Part shown: positions 1,283 to 6,712 of the stretch, one piece after another
How the letters are laid out: each line of letters starts with the position of its first letter
How positions within the stretch are numbered: the first letter of the stretch is position 1
NCBI GenBank assembly: GCA_002373555.1
Contig: DFKM01000068.1
Location: 1 to 14,093, forward strand
Reading direction: 5' to 3'
Origin: Lachnospiraceae bacterium UBA3645
Lineage (GTDB): Bacteria; Bacillota; Clostridia; Lachnospirales; Lachnospiraceae
Length of the DNA stretch: 14,093 nucleotides
Notes under the pieces: generated by a model
The model's database searches: none
What the model saw: the letters and a program-made list of their open reading frames with translations, nothing else
Told to the model about the DNA's origin: nothing
Made by a program: the position numbers and the translations under genes

Positions 1283-4264
1283 TTACAGGCCGTAATCCGC
1301 TCTGTTTACCAGCTCCAGCTGCAGTTCTCTGTTCAGCTGTGTGAAATACGCATTGTATCCTGAGATCCGGACCATCAGATCCTTGTACGCCTCCGGATTC
1401 GCCATTGCGGCGCGCATCGTCTCCGAGGAGACCACATTGAACTGCATCTGCATACCGCCGAGCTGCGCATACGCCTGCGCATAGTTCTTCACATGCTCCA
1501 CCGTCTCCGCGTGGGTATCCTTCGGCGAAGGATTCACCTTCACATTGAACGCAATGTTGTTGTTCATGCTGAGCGGATCCAGCCGCGTGACATCGCGGAT
1601 GTTGTCCAGCAGGCTCTTCGAAGCATTCGCCTCCGGTGTCAGACCGGGCGTAAACGGCTGATACGCCAGTCTGCCTGACGGCAATGCGCCGGTCAGCGAT
1701 CCGAATGCGACATGGTTCGACATCGACCAGAATCCGGTCGTATAATGTCCGCCGCGGAAATTGAGGTGCGACCAGAAGCAGTCCTTCATGAACTTCGTCA
1801 CTTCATTGGCCACGGCCACCGCTTCGTCGCTGCCGGAGCCGAACCGAGGCACTTCGGTCAGAATGATGCTGCGCATCGCTTCATTGCCTTCGAAATTGTT
1901 CTTTACCGCTTCCACAAGCTCCCGGAAGGTAAAACGCTTCGTGTCATAGACCAGCGTCTTGATCGCCATGAACGAATCCACGATATCTGCAAGGCCGATG
2001 CAGGCTGTTCCGGAGGAATTGTACTTCGCGCCGCCCTTTGTAACATCAACGCCTTTTTCAATGCAGCCATCCACCATCGTACTCATGAGCGGCGTCGGCC
2101 GCAGAACGGCATGCGCCTCGCCCAGATCATTATTGTATCCGCAGGTCGCATCCGCCAGGAACGCCAGCTGTTTAAAGAAGGCATCCCGAAACTGTTCGAA
2201 GGTCTCGAATTCTTCCACCTCTCCGGTCTTCGGGCCGACATCCCAGTGCATCAACGGATGGTAACCGTTGTACATCGCCATCTCCAGCGCGGCGACCATG
2301 TTGAACATCATGCAGTTCGTATGGCCGATATGCTTGCCGGAGATCGTGGGCTCGACACAGCCGGTGGCGGACCAGTCCCTGAGGTCCTCCGGGGCGTAAT
2401 GATGCTCCGCCAGCGAAGCCATCACGACCTCATCATTGTGAATGGAGGGCGTAGAGGTGGTATGGACATTCACCTCGCAGAGTCTGCGCAGGTAAGTAAT
2501 GCTGTTCTTCTTCGCATTATAACGGGCATTCACATTCGGATCCCGCATGCCCAGGATCTCGGTCACCTTCAGGAAAACGTAGGTCATATCATTGACAGCA
2601 TCTTCGCCGTCCGGCGTAATGCCGCCGAGCGTGATCGCCTGATCGGACGAGCTTCCGCCGAAAAGATAATTGCCGATATCCGGCACCAGCGGCACGTGGT
2701 CCTGGCAGCGCAGATAGAAGCAGCCGAGGAGCTCGATCACATGCGAAATGTAGGCATCGCGTTCTTCCTTTGTATGGAGCTTCTCCATATCCGCTGCGAA
2801 ATAAGGCTGGAGCCACTGGTCCATGCGTCCGAGCGAGAAGCCGGCATTCGTGCTCTCCATATGGATGCCGATCCAGTGCACCCAGATGGCGTGCACGGCT
2901 TCATCCATGTTCCGGGCGGGATACTCCGGCGAATGCGCTACTGCATCCGCGATCACGGTAAGCTCGGCTTTCCGTTTGGGATCCTGCTCCGCCTCGGCTT
3001 CCTTCCGGGCCTCCGCTGCCAGATGCCGGGCGTAAGTGATGACGCCCTTACAGCACTCGATCATTGCTTCGAGATATTCCTTCTTTTCCTGCGTCAGATC
3101 CGGATCCCCGGCCATCTCCTGCCGGATCTCTTTGATGATGCCCTGCAGACCGAGCTTCAGAAGCTTCGGATAGTCGATGATGGTATGGCTCAGCGCGACC
3201 GTTTTCCAGAGGAAGCAGGCGGCCCAGCGCTCATCGAGCTTCTGTCCGATCGGCTCATGATATTTTTCCCGGACATATTCCCGGAAATTCCGGTGCGACC
3301 AGAACGGGAAAATGTCGGAATTCAGCGCCTTGATCTCTTCTTCCGAGAGGGGCTCGTAAGGCTGCAGCATCCGCTCGCTGACGGTCAGCAGTTCGCCCCA
3401 CAGCAGGACGCCGACGCCGTCCGGGTAGACCGGCACGCCGATCTCTTTCGTCGTCGTGGTGCCGGCGAGCAGATCGTCTTTCCGGATGATCGGCTGTTTC
3501 TTTGTCATCAGATAGCGGAACGCCAGGCCCTGGCGGACTTCCGGGATCCAGGGCGTGCCGTCCTGCTTTGTCTCGAAGCCCTTCTGACGGAAGAAGTTGG
3601 TCAGCAGCTGTGCACGCTCCACGCACACGGCGGGCTTCGCCGTCAGATGGATGTCGAGGAATTTCTTCAGGCGGGGATAATTCTCGAGCGTATAAGTGCT
3701 GAGATAGGGATCGTCCGTGAGATATTTCACGCCGGGGTCGACGGAATCTGCCTTCAGATACTCTTTGGAGGGACGTTTGCGCACCGCGGCATCGGGATCA
3801 TCGACCATGGCTTTGCCGGACTCGGCGCGTTCGATTTTCTGCGCCTTCATCTGTTTGATCTGCTTATCCTTCATGAGCACCGAGATCAGGAGGTTGAAGA
3901 ATTCGAGATTGCTCATGTTGCCGGTGCTGCTCATTTTGTTCCGCAGCATCAGATTGAGGACTTCATTCGGCGGCAGTGTGGCAAGCTGCGCGAGAACGCC
4001 GGTATCCTGGAGGGTCAGGAGTGTATCGACGCCGCTGATGCTGCTCTTCACTTTTGCCCTGCCGTCTTTAAACCAGATGCTCTGGGCAACGGAGCCGTCC
4101 TCGGTCGTGAGGCCGATGGAGAAGTTGTTCCAGCCGTCACGGGTTCTGAGATATCTGCGGTTCTTCTTTACATTTGAGAATTCAAAAGCAAAATAGTGCA
4201 GGACTGCGTTCGCGAGCCGGTCAGCGGCCGCGCCGGTGAGCTGCTCTTTAATGTTGTCTTTCAT
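1283..4264 (-). CDS. Glycyl radical enzyme (PFL-like family) with an N-terminal SCP2-like domain
   Basis: This is a 993-residue cytoplasmic, oxygen-sensitive radical enzyme of the pyruvate formate-lyase superfamily; its substrate is not known. Residues about 45-133 resemble an SCP2 (sterol carrier protein 2) lipid-binding fold, with IWFKDGRAKV at 63-72 and a later hydrophobic helix. A charged linker follows (about 134-190), then the PFL-like barrel from about residue 195. The thiyl-radical loop is TGCVEP with Cys636 and Glu638, and the glycyl-radical loop is VRISGYNAYF with Gly969. The Cys-Val-Glu form is typical of dehydratases, C-N lyases and arylacetate decarboxylases and unlike the CC pair of true PFL. 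The protein is about 150 residues longer than typical relatives because of the extra domain. Start: GGGAGGAGG lies about seven bases upstream of the ATG at 4264, whereas an extension to 4378 has no such support. The activase gene lies upstream. Confidence 0.9.
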   Translation of the reverse strand: MKDNIKEQLTGAAADRLANAVLHYFAFEFSNVKKNRRYLRTRDGWNNFSIGLTTEDGSVAQSIWFKDGRAKVKSSISGVDTLLTLQDTGVLAQLATLPPNEVLNLMLRNKMSSTGNMSNLEFFNLLISVLMKDKQIKQMKAQKIERAESGKAMVDDPDAAVRKRPSKEYLKADSVDPGVKYLTDDPYLSTYTLENYPRLKKFLDIHLTAKPAVCVERAQLLTNFFRQKGFETKQDGTPWIPEVRQGLAFRYLMTKKQPIIRKDDLLAGTTTTKEIGVPVYPDGVGVLLWGELLTVSERMLQPYEPLSEEEIKALNSDIFPFWSHRNFREYVREKYHEPIGQKLDERWAACFLWKTVALSHTIIDYPKLLKLGLQGIIKEIRQEMAGDPDLTQEKKEYLEAMIECCKGVITYARHLAAEARKEAEAEQDPKRKAELTVIADAVAHSPEYPARNMDEAVHAIWVHWIGIHMESTNAGFSLGRMDQWLQPYFAADMEKLHTKEERDAYISHVIELLGCFYLRCQDHVPLVPDIGNYLFGGSSSDQAITLGGITPDGEDAVNDMTYVFLKVTEILGMRDPNVNARYNAKKNSITYLRRLCEVNVHTTSTPSIHNDEVVMASLAEHHYAPEDLRDWSATGCVEPTISGKHIGHTNCMMFNMVAALEMAMYNGYHPLMHWDVGPKTGEVEEFETFEQFRDAFFKQLAFLADATCGYNNDLGEAHAVLRPTPLMSTMVDGCIEKGVDVTKGGAKYNSSGTACIGLADIVDSFMAIKTLVYDTKRFTFRELVEAVKNNFEGNEAMRSIILTEVPRFGSGSDEAVAVANEVTKFMKDCFWSHLNFRGGHYTTGFWSMSNHVAFGSLTGALPSGRLAYQPFTPGLTPEANASKSLLDNIRDVTRLDPLSMNNNIAFNVKVNPSPKDTHAETVEHVKNYAQAYAQLGGMQMQFNVVSSETMRAAMANPEAYKDLMVRISGYNAYFTQLNRELQLELVNRADYGL

Positions 4265-4333: not shown

Positions 4334-4481
4334 GCATGTATGATCCTGTCTGCTTCCGAAAATCCTGCTGCGGCGCACATTCTCTCTTCAACCGTGCATT
4401 ATTCTCTGAATTCCGTGATTTATGGTCTACGGTTAGTCACACACTCTCTCCGGCCGTGCATTATTCTCCGGCTTTTGTGAA

Positions 4482-4508
4482 TTATGGTCTAAAGTCGTGC
4501 ACTGACAT
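4482..4508 (-). other. Possible leader peptide MSVHDFRP
   Basis: An eight-codon frame starts with ATG eight bases after AAGGAG (4517-4522) and ends AGA-CCA-TAA inside the conserved repeat box. A second frame at 4420-4461 (MHGRRECVTNRRP) has the same Arg-Pro-stop ending and a closer GGAG. The shared ending is forced by the repeated box, so translation is uncertain. Confidence 0.2.
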
Positions 4509-4562
4509 TCGTTTTTCTCCTTATTATGGTCCATACCAAAAACCATGTCCTTCCAAAAAAGT

Positions 4563-4591
4563 CATATATTTACGATTTCCTTCTTAATCAA
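4563..4591 (-). promoter_or_regulatory. Candidate promoter of the glycyl radical enzyme gene, at the centre of the repeat array
   Basis: On the minus strand, TTGATT (4586-4591) and TATATG (4563-4568) are 17 bases apart; TTGCTT with TAAATA at 18 bases is an alternative in the same place. The pair is centred on 4577, the symmetry point of the repeat array. GTCATAT (4561-4567) and ATATGAC (4599-4605) form a small dyad around it. If used, the mRNA leader would be about 300 bases long. The -10 match is weak. Confidence 0.3.
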
Positions 4592-4679
4592 AGCAAAAAT
4601 ATGACATTACAGTTTCAGAAAGAGACCATAATGATGCATCTATACACAATTCTTGCACAAATACAGACCATAAAACCAG

Positions 4680-4743
4680 AATCAGGCACTTCTCATGCAC
4701 AAGTTCAAGCTCCACACTGTAATCAGGCACTTCTCATGCACAA
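4680..4743. repeat. Perfect 23-base direct repeat, period 41
   Basis: Two identical 23-base copies at 4680-4702 and 4721-4743 each begin AATCAGGCAC and end CATGCACAA. They cover the TGCAC ends of the last two inverted units of the array, so these two units are recent duplicates or are held identical by selection. The second copy ends 14 bases from the activase stop codon. Confidence 0.9.
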
Positions 4744-4757
4744 TTCCCGCATGTACC

Positions 4758-5669
4758 TCAGTTCCTGATCCCTCTCTTTTGAAAGATCGCTTTGCAGTGC
4801 TCGATTTTCTCCTTCGGCTGCCAGTGATCCAGGCCTTCCAGTTCCTTATCTCTCTTCAGCCCCAGTTTGGCAGTCTTCTTATACCACGTCGGATTATACG
4901 GCAGCAGCTCTGTCTTCGTAATTCCGATCTCCCGATACATGTCCGCGATCGCTGTCAGATTCTCATCCGTATCCGTGATCCCCGGGATCAGCGGTGTACG
5001 CGACAGAAACGAGAATCCCATCTCCGCGGAATCACAGTGCAGCCTGCGGAGGTTCTCCAGCACCGGCCTGTTCGGCACGCCGCAGTATTTCTGATGGGCT
5101 TCCGGATCCATGATCTTGACATCCATATAAATGCCGGAAATGTACGGCAGCAGATGTTCTTTCACCGTTTCATACCGGAAAAAGCCGCAGGTTTCCAGAT
5201 GCACCCGGATCCCTTCTTTCGTCAGACGCTTCGCCAGCGCGCCGGCGTACTCCGGAAAGAGTGTCGCTTCGCCGCCGGTCAGCGTGACGCCGCCGCCGGA
5301 AACATCATAAAAAGGCTTGTCCTTCACGCACTTTTCCGTGATTTCTTCGACTGACATCTCCGTCCCGACCCGCTGCAGCGCCTTCGGCGGACAGGAAGCC
5401 GTGCATGCAAAGCAGCGGACGCATTTCCCCCGGTCCACGATCCCGGGCCGGCGCGGAGACGCGGCTCCCTCCGGACATACCTTCGCACAGGTTCCGCAGC
5501 CGATGCAGTCCTCTGTGGAGACAGACAATTCCGGTTCTGTACGCTTGCTCTCCGGATTATGGCACCAGATGCACCGCATCGGGCAGCCTTTGAAGAAGAC
5601 CGCCGTCCGAATCCCGGGGCCGTCATCCAGGGAATTGCCTTTCAGTTCCAATACCAGCGGCACCTTCAT
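4758..5669 (-). CDS. Glycyl-radical-enzyme activating enzyme (radical SAM)
   Basis: This 303-residue protein uses S-adenosylmethionine and an iron-sulfur cluster to abstract a hydrogen from the active-site glycine of its partner, creating the stored glycyl radical. The radical-SAM motif is CPMRCIWC with C29, C33 and C36. An inserted double ferredoxin domain follows, with C55, C58, C61, C65 and C83, C86, C89, C93; PFL activase itself lacks this insert, but activases of dehydratase, decarboxylase and fumarate-adding enzymes have it. The glycine-rich SAM-binding stretch SGGGVTLTGGEA is at 124-135 and MDVKIMD lies further on. The start is supported by AGGAGG about seven bases upstream. The obvious partner is the downstream enzyme Gly969. 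Activase-before-enzyme is the less usual order. The gene has its own candidate promoter but could also be read from the HTH-Uma2 gene 116 bases upstream. Confidence 0.95.
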   Translation of the reverse strand: MKVPLVLELKGNSLDDGPGIRTAVFFKGCPMRCIWCHNPESKRTEPELSVSTEDCIGCGTCAKVCPEGAASPRRPGIVDRGKCVRCFACTASCPPKALQRVGTEMSVEEITEKCVKDKPFYDVSGGGVTLTGGEATLFPEYAGALAKRLTKEGIRVHLETCGFFRYETVKEHLLPYISGIYMDVKIMDPEAHQKYCGVPNRPVLENLRRLHCDSAEMGFSFLSRTPLIPGITDTDENLTAIADMYREIGITKTELLPYNPTWYKKTAKLGLKRDKELEGLDHWQPKEKIEHCKAIFQKRGIRN

Positions 5670-5785: not shown

Positions 5786-6676
5786 TCAAAGATTCCTTCC
5801 GTCCTCGACTTCCATCTGTTCCATTTCCTCGATCTCTTCAATCAGCCCGGACAGATCCACTGCACATCTGCCATCCCAGATACCGACCGGGATCTTCTCC
5901 GAAAAATTCCAGGAACGGAAGGAAAGCACCTGGTCCTGGTTCTCATAGACCAGCACCTGCTTTTCCTTCGGATTGATGATCCAGTATTCTTTTACACCGG
6001 CATTCATATATTTATGAAGCTTGATCGTCAGATCTTTCTTTGACGTGGAAGACGACAGGATCTCCATCACGAGATCCGGGGCTCCGAAACAACCGAAACG
6101 CCTCTTCCTGCTTTCGTTGCAGATCACAAGGACATCGGGCTCCACCATCGTACGGTCATCGCAGTCTAGCTGCACATCGAAGGGCGCTGTGAAGACCCTG
6201 CATTTTCCATGATTGTTCTGAACGAACATATGCAGCTGGAAGGACACCTCCATAGAGATCCTCTGATGCACATACGACGGCGCCAGCATCTCATAGAATA
6301 CACCGTCGATCAGCTCCACCCGCTGATCTTCCGGCAGCGCATAATAGTCCTCCAGTGTGTACTCCCCCTGTTTTTTCGCCCGGCGTGCCGCACTTCCGTA
6401 ACTGACCCGCGTTTCTTCGAATGCCGGTATTTCTCCGCCGGACTGCAGAAAATCCATGATCTCCTCTGCCGTTTTTCCGAATGTCCGCTCATATACATCC
6501 GGATCCTGCTTCTTCAGCACTTTCTCCAATCCGAGCACAGCCTGCATACGCGGGGATCTGGTCTCCCCGCTCAGAATCCGCTGGACTGTGCCCAGCGGTA
6601 CGCCCGAGCGTGCGGCGAGTTCTTTGTTGCTGAGCCCGAGTTCTTTCTTCCTTTCCCGCATCTCCTCTATGGTCAT
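5786..6676 (-). CDS. XRE-type helix-turn-helix protein fused to a Uma2-family PD-(D/E)XK domain
   Basis: This 296-residue protein has two parts. Residues 2-56 form an XRE/Cro helix-turn-helix, with LSNKELAARSGVPLGTVQRI at about 15-34, so it should bind DNA. Residues about 105-290 form a Uma2 (DUF820) domain, a PD-(D/E)XK nuclease-like fold, with VEPDVLVI (Asp181), VMEIL (Glu205), a Lys-rich stretch at 213-219 and the family signature GVKEYWIINP at 227-236. The acidic residues of the fold are present, so it need not be inactive. Uma2 proteins are common in Bacillota and cyanobacteria and their biological role is unsettled. The start at 6676 is chosen because AGGAGG lies seven bases before it; a longer frame would translate that site. 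Its promoter contains a motif shared with the glycyl radical enzyme leader, so autoregulation and control of the neighbouring operon are plausible but unproven. Confidence 0.85.
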   Translation of the reverse strand: MTIEEMRERKKELGLSNKELAARSGVPLGTVQRILSGETRSPRMQAVLGLEKVLKKQDPDVYERTFGKTAEEIMDFLQSGGEIPAFEETRVSYGSAARRAKKQGEYTLEDYYALPEDQRVELIDGVFYEMLAPSYVHQRISMEVSFQLHMFVQNNHGKCRVFTAPFDVQLDCDDRTMVEPDVLVICNESRKRRFGCFGAPDLVMEILSSSTSKKDLTIKLHKYMNAGVKEYWIINPKEKQVLVYENQDQVLSFRSWNFSEKIPVGIWDGRCAVDLSGLIEEIEEMEQMEVEDGRNL

Positions 6677-6712
6677 GCTGCACCTCCTCAAACATCTTTT
6701 TCATCTGCATCG

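Follow-up and report, generated by a model that had tools for sequence, protein, structure and literature searches.

A helically phased array of bipartite repeats beside a glycyl radical enzyme gene is one of about a dozen dispersed among unrelated genes in a Lachnospiraceae bacterium

The looping operators of AraC and Lac show helical phasing between their sites. The sopC centromere consists of tandem 43-bp repeats of about four helical turns, and matS sites are dispersed sites for a single chromosome-organizing protein. The arrays reported here resemble these sites, as generally described, in their helical phasing, their tandem repeats of about four turns and their dispersal. To our knowledge, none of the four is built of multi-unit arms that converge on each other, with an asymmetric bipartite site as the unit, at a dozen loci. 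REP and BIME elements are described, in the sections of the source cited here, as intergenic clusters with units in both orientations, in which the segments between units are repeated within a cluster and unrelated between loci; they differ strongly between relatives and are bound by host proteins (PMC2817692). The BrickBuilt MITE of Porphyromonas gingivalis is present in 19 intergenic copies in one genome, each made of short head-to-tail repeats, and has a limited host range. In the portion of that account used here, its 23-nt repeats lack spacers and are flanked by a leader and a tail, with small inverted repeats at the ends (PMC4596501).

We analyzed a window of 14,093 bp from Lachnospiraceae bacterium UBA3645 (contig DFKM01000068.1; "the window" refers to this whole stretch of DNA), in which an array of bipartite repeats lies between an activase gene and a glycyl radical enzyme gene (Table 1). 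An initial annotation had described five clear units and one degenerate unit, three per strand. Searching the window with GTGCA-N21/22-TTATGGTCY, with Y at the last base, returned five matches at 4394-4700, three on the + strand and two on the - strand. The five clear units are thus perfect, and the sixth, on the - strand, is a GTGCA half (4737-4741) lying in a 23-bp stretch that is duplicated exactly (4680-4702 and 4721-4743). The boxes were located at 4420 and 4482 (+), 4524 (+, with one mismatch, TTATGGTCC in place of TTATGGTCT), and 4623 and 4665 (-), which are the same four perfect 9-base boxes and one single-mismatch box named in the annotation. Its statement that this density is far beyond chance also held, as 200 dinucleotide shuffles of the window yielded no match to the bipartite unit. 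The four inner boxes are mirror-symmetric exactly about 4577.5, with the reported 6 bp within each pair, and the GTGCA halves of the inner pair mirror exactly. Those of the outer pair miss by a single base, as one of the units measures 35 bp rather than 36 bp. The reported spacing needed correction: successive boxes are 62, 42, 99 (over the centre) and 42 bp apart rather than 62, 42, 42 and 41 bp. The lattice is 42 bp, and the 62-bp step is off this lattice, though near six turns.

Table 1. Coordinates of the array and its neighboring genes, counted from the first base of the window.
Feature	Position	Strand	Remarks
Unit 1, 35 bp	4394..4428	+	Perfect; pattern match
Unit 2, 35 bp	4456..4490	+	Perfect; pattern match
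Unit 3, 36 bp	4497..4532	+	Innermost of left arm; box TTATGGTCC
A+T-rich centre	4533..4622		GC 0.29; 90 bp separating the innermost boxes; dyad at 4577.5; in helical phase
Unit 4, 36 bp	4623..4658	-	Innermost of right arm
Unit 5, 36 bp	4665..4700	-	
Half unit	4721..4743	-	Second copy of exact 23-bp duplication; GTGCA without TTATGGTCT box
Glycyl radical enzyme gene	1283..4264	-	993 aa; PFL-like and Gly_radical domains; downstream of array
Glycyl radical enzyme activase gene	4758..5669	-	Radical SAM; upstream of array

The radical enzyme had been labeled SCP2-type, and a Pfam scan at E 0.001 found no SCP2 domain in it. Its first ~194 residues gave no Pfam or NCBIfam match at the same threshold, and its scores against the listed NCBIfam equivalogs were far below their cut-offs. 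Nearby, an HTH_3-Uma2 gene (5786-6691) is flanked by the activase gene and a DUF362 gene. The equivalent gap in G010, another genome of the genus, has no HTH_3-Uma2 gene but carries one array unit (L078:7253-7288).

We found that arrays at other loci follow the same grammar. The unit is asymmetric and bipartite, 35 or 36 bp long (GTGCAY-N20/21-TTATGGTCY), with the consensus YYGTGCAYRRA ... T-TTATGGTCY. Our set comprised 26 arrays: 12 from the genome of the window (G000), 13 from G001 (counting the tandem pair at L071 as two) and one from G010. Arrays were defined by units with at most two mismatches, and gaps were measured between units with at most one; a perfect unit within a microcompartment gene (C83:16571) and a one-mismatch copy at the same place of L074 were set aside before counting. 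Among 64 gaps between same-strand neighbors, 46 were 5-6 bp and 13 were 47-48 bp, or one slot more, and the remaining five were 17, 27, 58, 68 and 90 bp. This pattern is a 42-bp lattice in which a slot is occasionally left empty. The arms are convergent in 25 of the 26 arrays, with every + unit to the left of every - unit. The sole exception, at L068:6110-6828, has six alternating + and - units with a 126-bp period (three lattice steps), a layout that resembles BIME-2. Duplications of units are seen inside arms. Between the two tandem arrays of L071 (6298-6459) lie ~43-bp repeats that keep the GTGC start alone and look like decayed units.

The distance between the arms varies and its helical phase does not. 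The innermost facing canonical boxes are separated by 7, 17, 38, 81, 90-92, 122, 127 or 133 bp, and the arm-to-arm gaps taken modulo 10.5 fall within 6.0-8.0 in 25 of 26 arrays, with L068 entered once. The mean resultant is 0.87, with a nominal Rayleigh p of 3e-9 that assumes independence of the arrays, yet 11 of the 26 share one gap class; when the eight gap classes are counted once each, simulation gives p of about 0.008. The outlier, at 127 bp, is L078 of G010, where one unit has lost 5 bp and so escaped the pattern. Once that unit is included, the gap is 90 bp and in phase.

Facing boxes in an array are complementary, as they would be in a structured RNA transcribed from the array whose left arm pairs with its right arm. 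The window array also folds better than its shuffles (z -2.9, with 0 of 100 as good). Pairing offers no reason for the 10.5-bp phasing, however, and in 24 of 26 arrays the spacers of the arms are non-complementary. Covariation is absent at the last box position (eight C/A mismatches in the 25 arrays scored; Fisher p 1.0), and the failure of the innermost boxes to covary as base pairs speaks for duplex DNA over RNA. Rfam searches were negative for the window and for the arrays at four further loci. A known RNA family or riboswitch was therefore rejected, the sole match at those four loci being a Clostridiales-1 RNA (RF01699, 83 bits) that lies near the array locus at L071:3959-4157 and away from the array itself. 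We find the RNA explanation hardly credible.

Some arms carry a second type of box on the same lattice. We searched for TTAGG[ATG]?[TC]CC after GTGC[AG]-N19-24, a motif derived from the arrays themselves, and found 16 such boxes (TTAGG[N]TCC) within the arrays (11.1 kb including short margins) and none in the surrounding 315 kb. In 12 of 16 cases the second box belongs to the unit of its arm closest to the centre. The sequence TTTAGGATCC is invariant across six co-aligned arrays. By eye, TTAGG[N]TCC sits on the arm nearest the downstream gene in five of the six arrays with a single nameable side (L058, L064, L071, L072 and L073, versus L070).

The element is abundant in few genomes. The genome of the window, which is 63% complete, contains 40 perfect units at 12 array loci and none of the reversed-pattern control. 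Across 11 genomes of the genus, there are 100 perfect units versus one for the control, and all of them occur in three genomes: G000 (40), G001 (56; 96% complete) and G010 (4; 75% complete). Thus, two of the ten other genomes share the element. The 28 array loci contain 99 units, against one in all of ten order-3 Markov simulations of equal length. When the 36-bp form was allowed up to two mismatches, hits versus control were 53 and 4 in G000, 71 and 14 in G001, and 10 and 6 in G010; the other eight genomes gave near-control counts. G010 keeps few arrays, and the element is therefore dispensable in that genome.

Outside the genus, we found little trace of the element. A stricter tandem pattern occurred in one of 299 genomes drawn from the family, namely the genome of the window. 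A scan of named contigs for exact matches to this pattern, which may have left out records near our own genome, returned 13 stretches: 11 in Lachnospiraceae MAG RGIG2573 (goat jejunum), one in SRR873608_bin.142 and one in a Bacteroidetes MAG. The first two are the other carriers in the genus. The third (L096) was rejected as a true array and taken as chance because it falls within a reading frame of 860 aa and has no array in its surroundings. The exact tandem-pattern scan of viral contigs gave no match, blastn found neither a phage match for the L072 array nor a plasmid match for the window array, and we rejected a phage or plasmid origin. Among the literature matches listed, those to the exact box were unrelated and those for similar intergenic repeats were MITE and REP papers, none of them on this element. 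Strict multi-term queries about binding sites that are dispersed or arrays that are helically phased gave nothing, which is a weak negative. A search for RGIG2573 found no literature, and the matches listed for SCP2-type radical enzymes included nothing relevant. On the basis of these searches, we are aware of no earlier account of the element.

We compared the distribution of the arrays with that of the radical enzyme. A full-length enzyme is present in three of the 11 genus genomes, the same three that carry perfect units, and in none of 298 other genomes of the family at E 1e-250. All three have an array beside the gene, including both genomes other than our own, so the element is retained where the gene is retained. 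The initial annotation had asked whether related genomes always place the element by SCP2-type glycyl radical enzymes. It is found at many other loci, and with 40 units at 12 loci in the genome of the window and further units in two more genomes, an exclusive tie to the enzyme was rejected. Nor is this spread random: 337 of 8504 array bases lie in called genes (home-made hexamer model), whereas the loci overall are 86% coding. Of these 337 bases, 247 come from carA (L054), where a chance match was included in the tally of its array, and the rest belong to one called frame in L055.

The genes beside the arrays have no function in common. Arrays adjoin rho and a glyoxalase gene, carA and pyrG, prmC-prfA, the genes for EF-P and an M18 peptidase, a microcompartment shell gene, the genes for a MATE protein and a diacylglycerol kinase, those for UbiD and a LysR protein, and others. 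An all-against-all table of the home-made gene calls gave orthologous loci and ordinary paralogues and no gene common to many arrays. No DNA-binding protein candidate stands out among the neighboring genes scanned, and NCBIfam gave no match for three unassigned neighbors. The arrays have a GC content of 0.41, versus 0.45 for other intergenic DNA of the loci, and 15 centres range from 0.26 to 0.44.

The arrays could instead be the operators of an ordinary transcription factor regulon, whose arms flank a promoter and whose factor represses or activates by looping, both here beside the enzyme gene and at the other loci. Looping operators typically show helical phasing across a centre, tandem or divergent genes border 22 of the 25 array-bearing gaps that measure at least 200 bp, and the one-sided position of the second box described above would suit this model. 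The types of gap with and without arrays are not clearly different, however, at 6 divergent, 16 tandem and 3 convergent versus 13, 27 and 2 (home-made gene calls). A simple sigma70-type score found no enrichment of promoter-like sequence in the 15 centres (mean z -0.5), which speaks against a promoter there. Ten of 26 arrays have a gap of 7, 17 or 38 bp, which leaves insufficient room for a promoter. The lack of a common function among neighbors and the absence of the rho, prfA and carA sites from both sister species (see below) also weigh against a regulon, which we regard as improbable. The same evidence bears on the claim that the window array controls the radical enzyme. That locus is one of 12 in its own genome, the others lie beside functionally unrelated genes, the centres show no promoter enrichment and three of the 25 gaps lie between convergent genes. 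Control of this particular enzyme is thus unsupported.

We examined constraint at the enzyme locus, where G000 and G001 could be compared across the four inner units. Their boxes are identical at 56 of 56 positions and their spacers at 39 of 87. The enzyme gene itself is 56% identical at fourfold sites, with a dS of 0.93, so the inner boxes at this one locus have been conserved while neutral sites approached saturation. The outer units show no correspondence between the two genomes. In G010, two of the four inner GTGCA halves are intact and all four TTATGGTCT boxes are kept.

Other arrays turn over between species. The MATE and microcompartment arrays are also common to G000 and G001. Neither G001 nor G010 has the arrays that G000 carries at rho, prfA and carA, and no array was seen among the stretches compared in other genomes (prfA in six genomes; rho and carA in part). 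The ABC-gene array is absent from G001, and the UbiD locus of G010 holds a single unit. The comparison of G001 with G000 leaves out the EF-P array, where the G000 contig ends within the gene. In looking for target-site duplications, we found that the junctions lacking an array (rho, prfA, carA and ABC) have diverged too far for the ends to be placed. At prfA (L103, L104) and carA (L121, L122), G001 and G010 carry pieces of another intergenic repeat, with CTCAGGATGACA / TGTCATCCTGAG, where G000 has its array; within the array loci, its exact sites number 6 in G000, 10 in G001 and 1 in G010.

We also compared arrays with their boxes masked, using 650 comparisons with 30 shuffles each and leaving out the two-mismatch match inside carA (L054). 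The median z was 0.7, and small values mean little, as the orthologous pair of the window and L075 reached only 4.2. Most arrays of different loci lose their similarity when the boxes are masked. Clear exceptions are the orthologous pair L075-L078 and the family L071a, L071b and L072, with z of 18 to 23 in the family. Between different loci, another seven pairs, such as L059-L071a and L071a-L073, have z of 5.4 to 8.4. No two arrays from different loci are more than 77% identical, a value reached over 247 bp by L071 and L072.

The turnover at rho, prfA, carA and ABC and the relatedness of L071 and L072 would also suit a selfish or formerly mobile repeat family, REP/BIME- or MITE-like, in which the boxes are recognition sites of a transposase that copies the elements from one intergenic site to another, and are conserved because no copies but those with good boxes multiply. 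Sister species differ in array presence at conserved gene pairs; some arrays interrupt probable operons (activase-enzyme, prmC-prfA), and others separate convergent genes. The L071a, L071b and L072 arrays are related through their spacers and centre, with the weaker box-masked pairs adding to them. Y1 transposase matches are also present in G000 (two) and G001 (three) and absent from array-poor G010. Several results do not fit this account. The ceiling of 77% identity between loci argues that there has been no recent burst, and the arms are not inverted repeats outside the boxes (z below 3 in 24 of 26 arrays; the exceptions are L061 at 6.4 and L064 at 4.8). In G001, which is 96% complete and has 56 perfect units, no two facing arms are separated by the length of a gene. 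At the enzyme locus, G000 and G001 have identical inner boxes against near-saturated neutral sites.

We found ten Y1 matches in four of the 11 genomes (G000, G001, one in G002 and four in G008; none in the other seven), and G008, with its four matches, has no perfect unit. Seven of the ten Y1 loci (1.8 to 3.4 kb each, including all five of G000 and G001) contain no perfect unit or box, and the sole match at a Y1 locus, in G002 (L141), is weak, with two mismatches. We rejected a link to RAYT proteins on these seven loci, with the qualification that the carrier genomes are incomplete and one could be missing. Altogether, we consider a mobile origin of this kind fairly unlikely.

REP and BIME elements are nonetheless the nearest known kind. 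Like them, the arrays are intergenic and clustered, with units in both orientations, and in the respects covered by our source, the segments between units are unrelated across loci though repeated within a cluster, relatives differ strongly, and the arrays would likewise be bound by a host protein. The arrays fall outside this class, as their unit is non-palindromic and the Y1 loci examined contain no perfect unit. Whereas a REP unit is an imperfect palindrome or hairpin of 20-40 bp, inspection of 100 units by eye found no dyad in GTGCAYRRA...TTATGGTCY beyond the 6-bp GTGCAC. Except at L068, the arms run head-to-tail and face each other with a strict 42-bp pitch and a helical phase, and the 40 and 56 perfect units of G000 and G001 include none beside the Y1 transposases examined. 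BrickBuilt, as far as the cited portion describes it, is similar in copy number and intergenic placement and differs in anatomy: our arrays have free spacers and mirror-placed arms, with no common end sequence seen beyond the boxes. MITEs also have near-identical copies and terminal inverted repeats, unlike the arrays, whose best pair is 77% identical and whose arms are unrelated outside the boxes in 24 of 26 cases. The arrays would be a variant of dispersed, protein-binding intergenic repeats and may be a class of their own.

We lean, with modest confidence, toward a model in which the arrays are lineage-specific, BIME-like dispersed intergenic elements of a small uncultured Lachnospiraceae clade that serve as lattices for a putative DNA-binding protein, with their boxes under selection. 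An asymmetric site repeated every four turns in phased, facing arms most likely reflects the demands of a protein that binds duplex DNA cooperatively along one face. Each 35- or 36-bp unit would be the site for one putative sequence-specific protein, and copies docked every 42 bp (four helical turns) would turn an arm into a one-faced lattice. The two arms would face each other at a distance that holds rotational phase over one to a dozen turns. At gaps of 7 or 17 bp, the proteins of the two arms would touch directly; at 38 to 133 bp, contact would follow bending of the A+T-rich centre and close a local nucleoprotein knot or loop. Arrays would grow by tandem duplication of 42-bp units and be gained and lost between species, with selection acting mainly on the boxes.

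This docking model retains one half of the original proposal, a cooperative protein-binding scaffold, which is well supported at the level of sequence by the strict 42-bp pitch, the fixed phase over variable centres and the conservation of the inner boxes. Boxes conserved against a neutral background (one locus) and a phase fixed to the helix (26 arrays) are what would be expected of an architectural site. We place an architectural or insulating role for the surrounding DNA ahead of an operator because the 15 centres lack promoter enrichment and three arrays lie between convergent genes. The array would then not be a switch for the radical enzyme. A bolder proposal, possible but doubtful, is that the arrays form a new class of chromosome element, confined to a single small clade, in which convergent arms of the asymmetric bipartite site on a 42-bp lattice, often capped towards the centre by the second box, allow one protein to build closed, one-faced knots at twelve or more intergenic loci that act as boundaries or anchors of the chromosome.

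The window array is one of about a dozen similar arrays among unrelated genes in the genome of a rare gut bacterium, which corrects the view that it is the radical enzyme's own. If the docking model is true, a putative protein touches the chromosome of a gut bacterium in helical phase at twelve or more sites, and its code would be legible from sequence alone as a pitch, a phase, an orientation and two box types. Array-rich G000 and G001, array-poor G010 and the eight genomes without perfect units, all within one genus, form a natural experiment that should help to pinpoint the protein by gene content.
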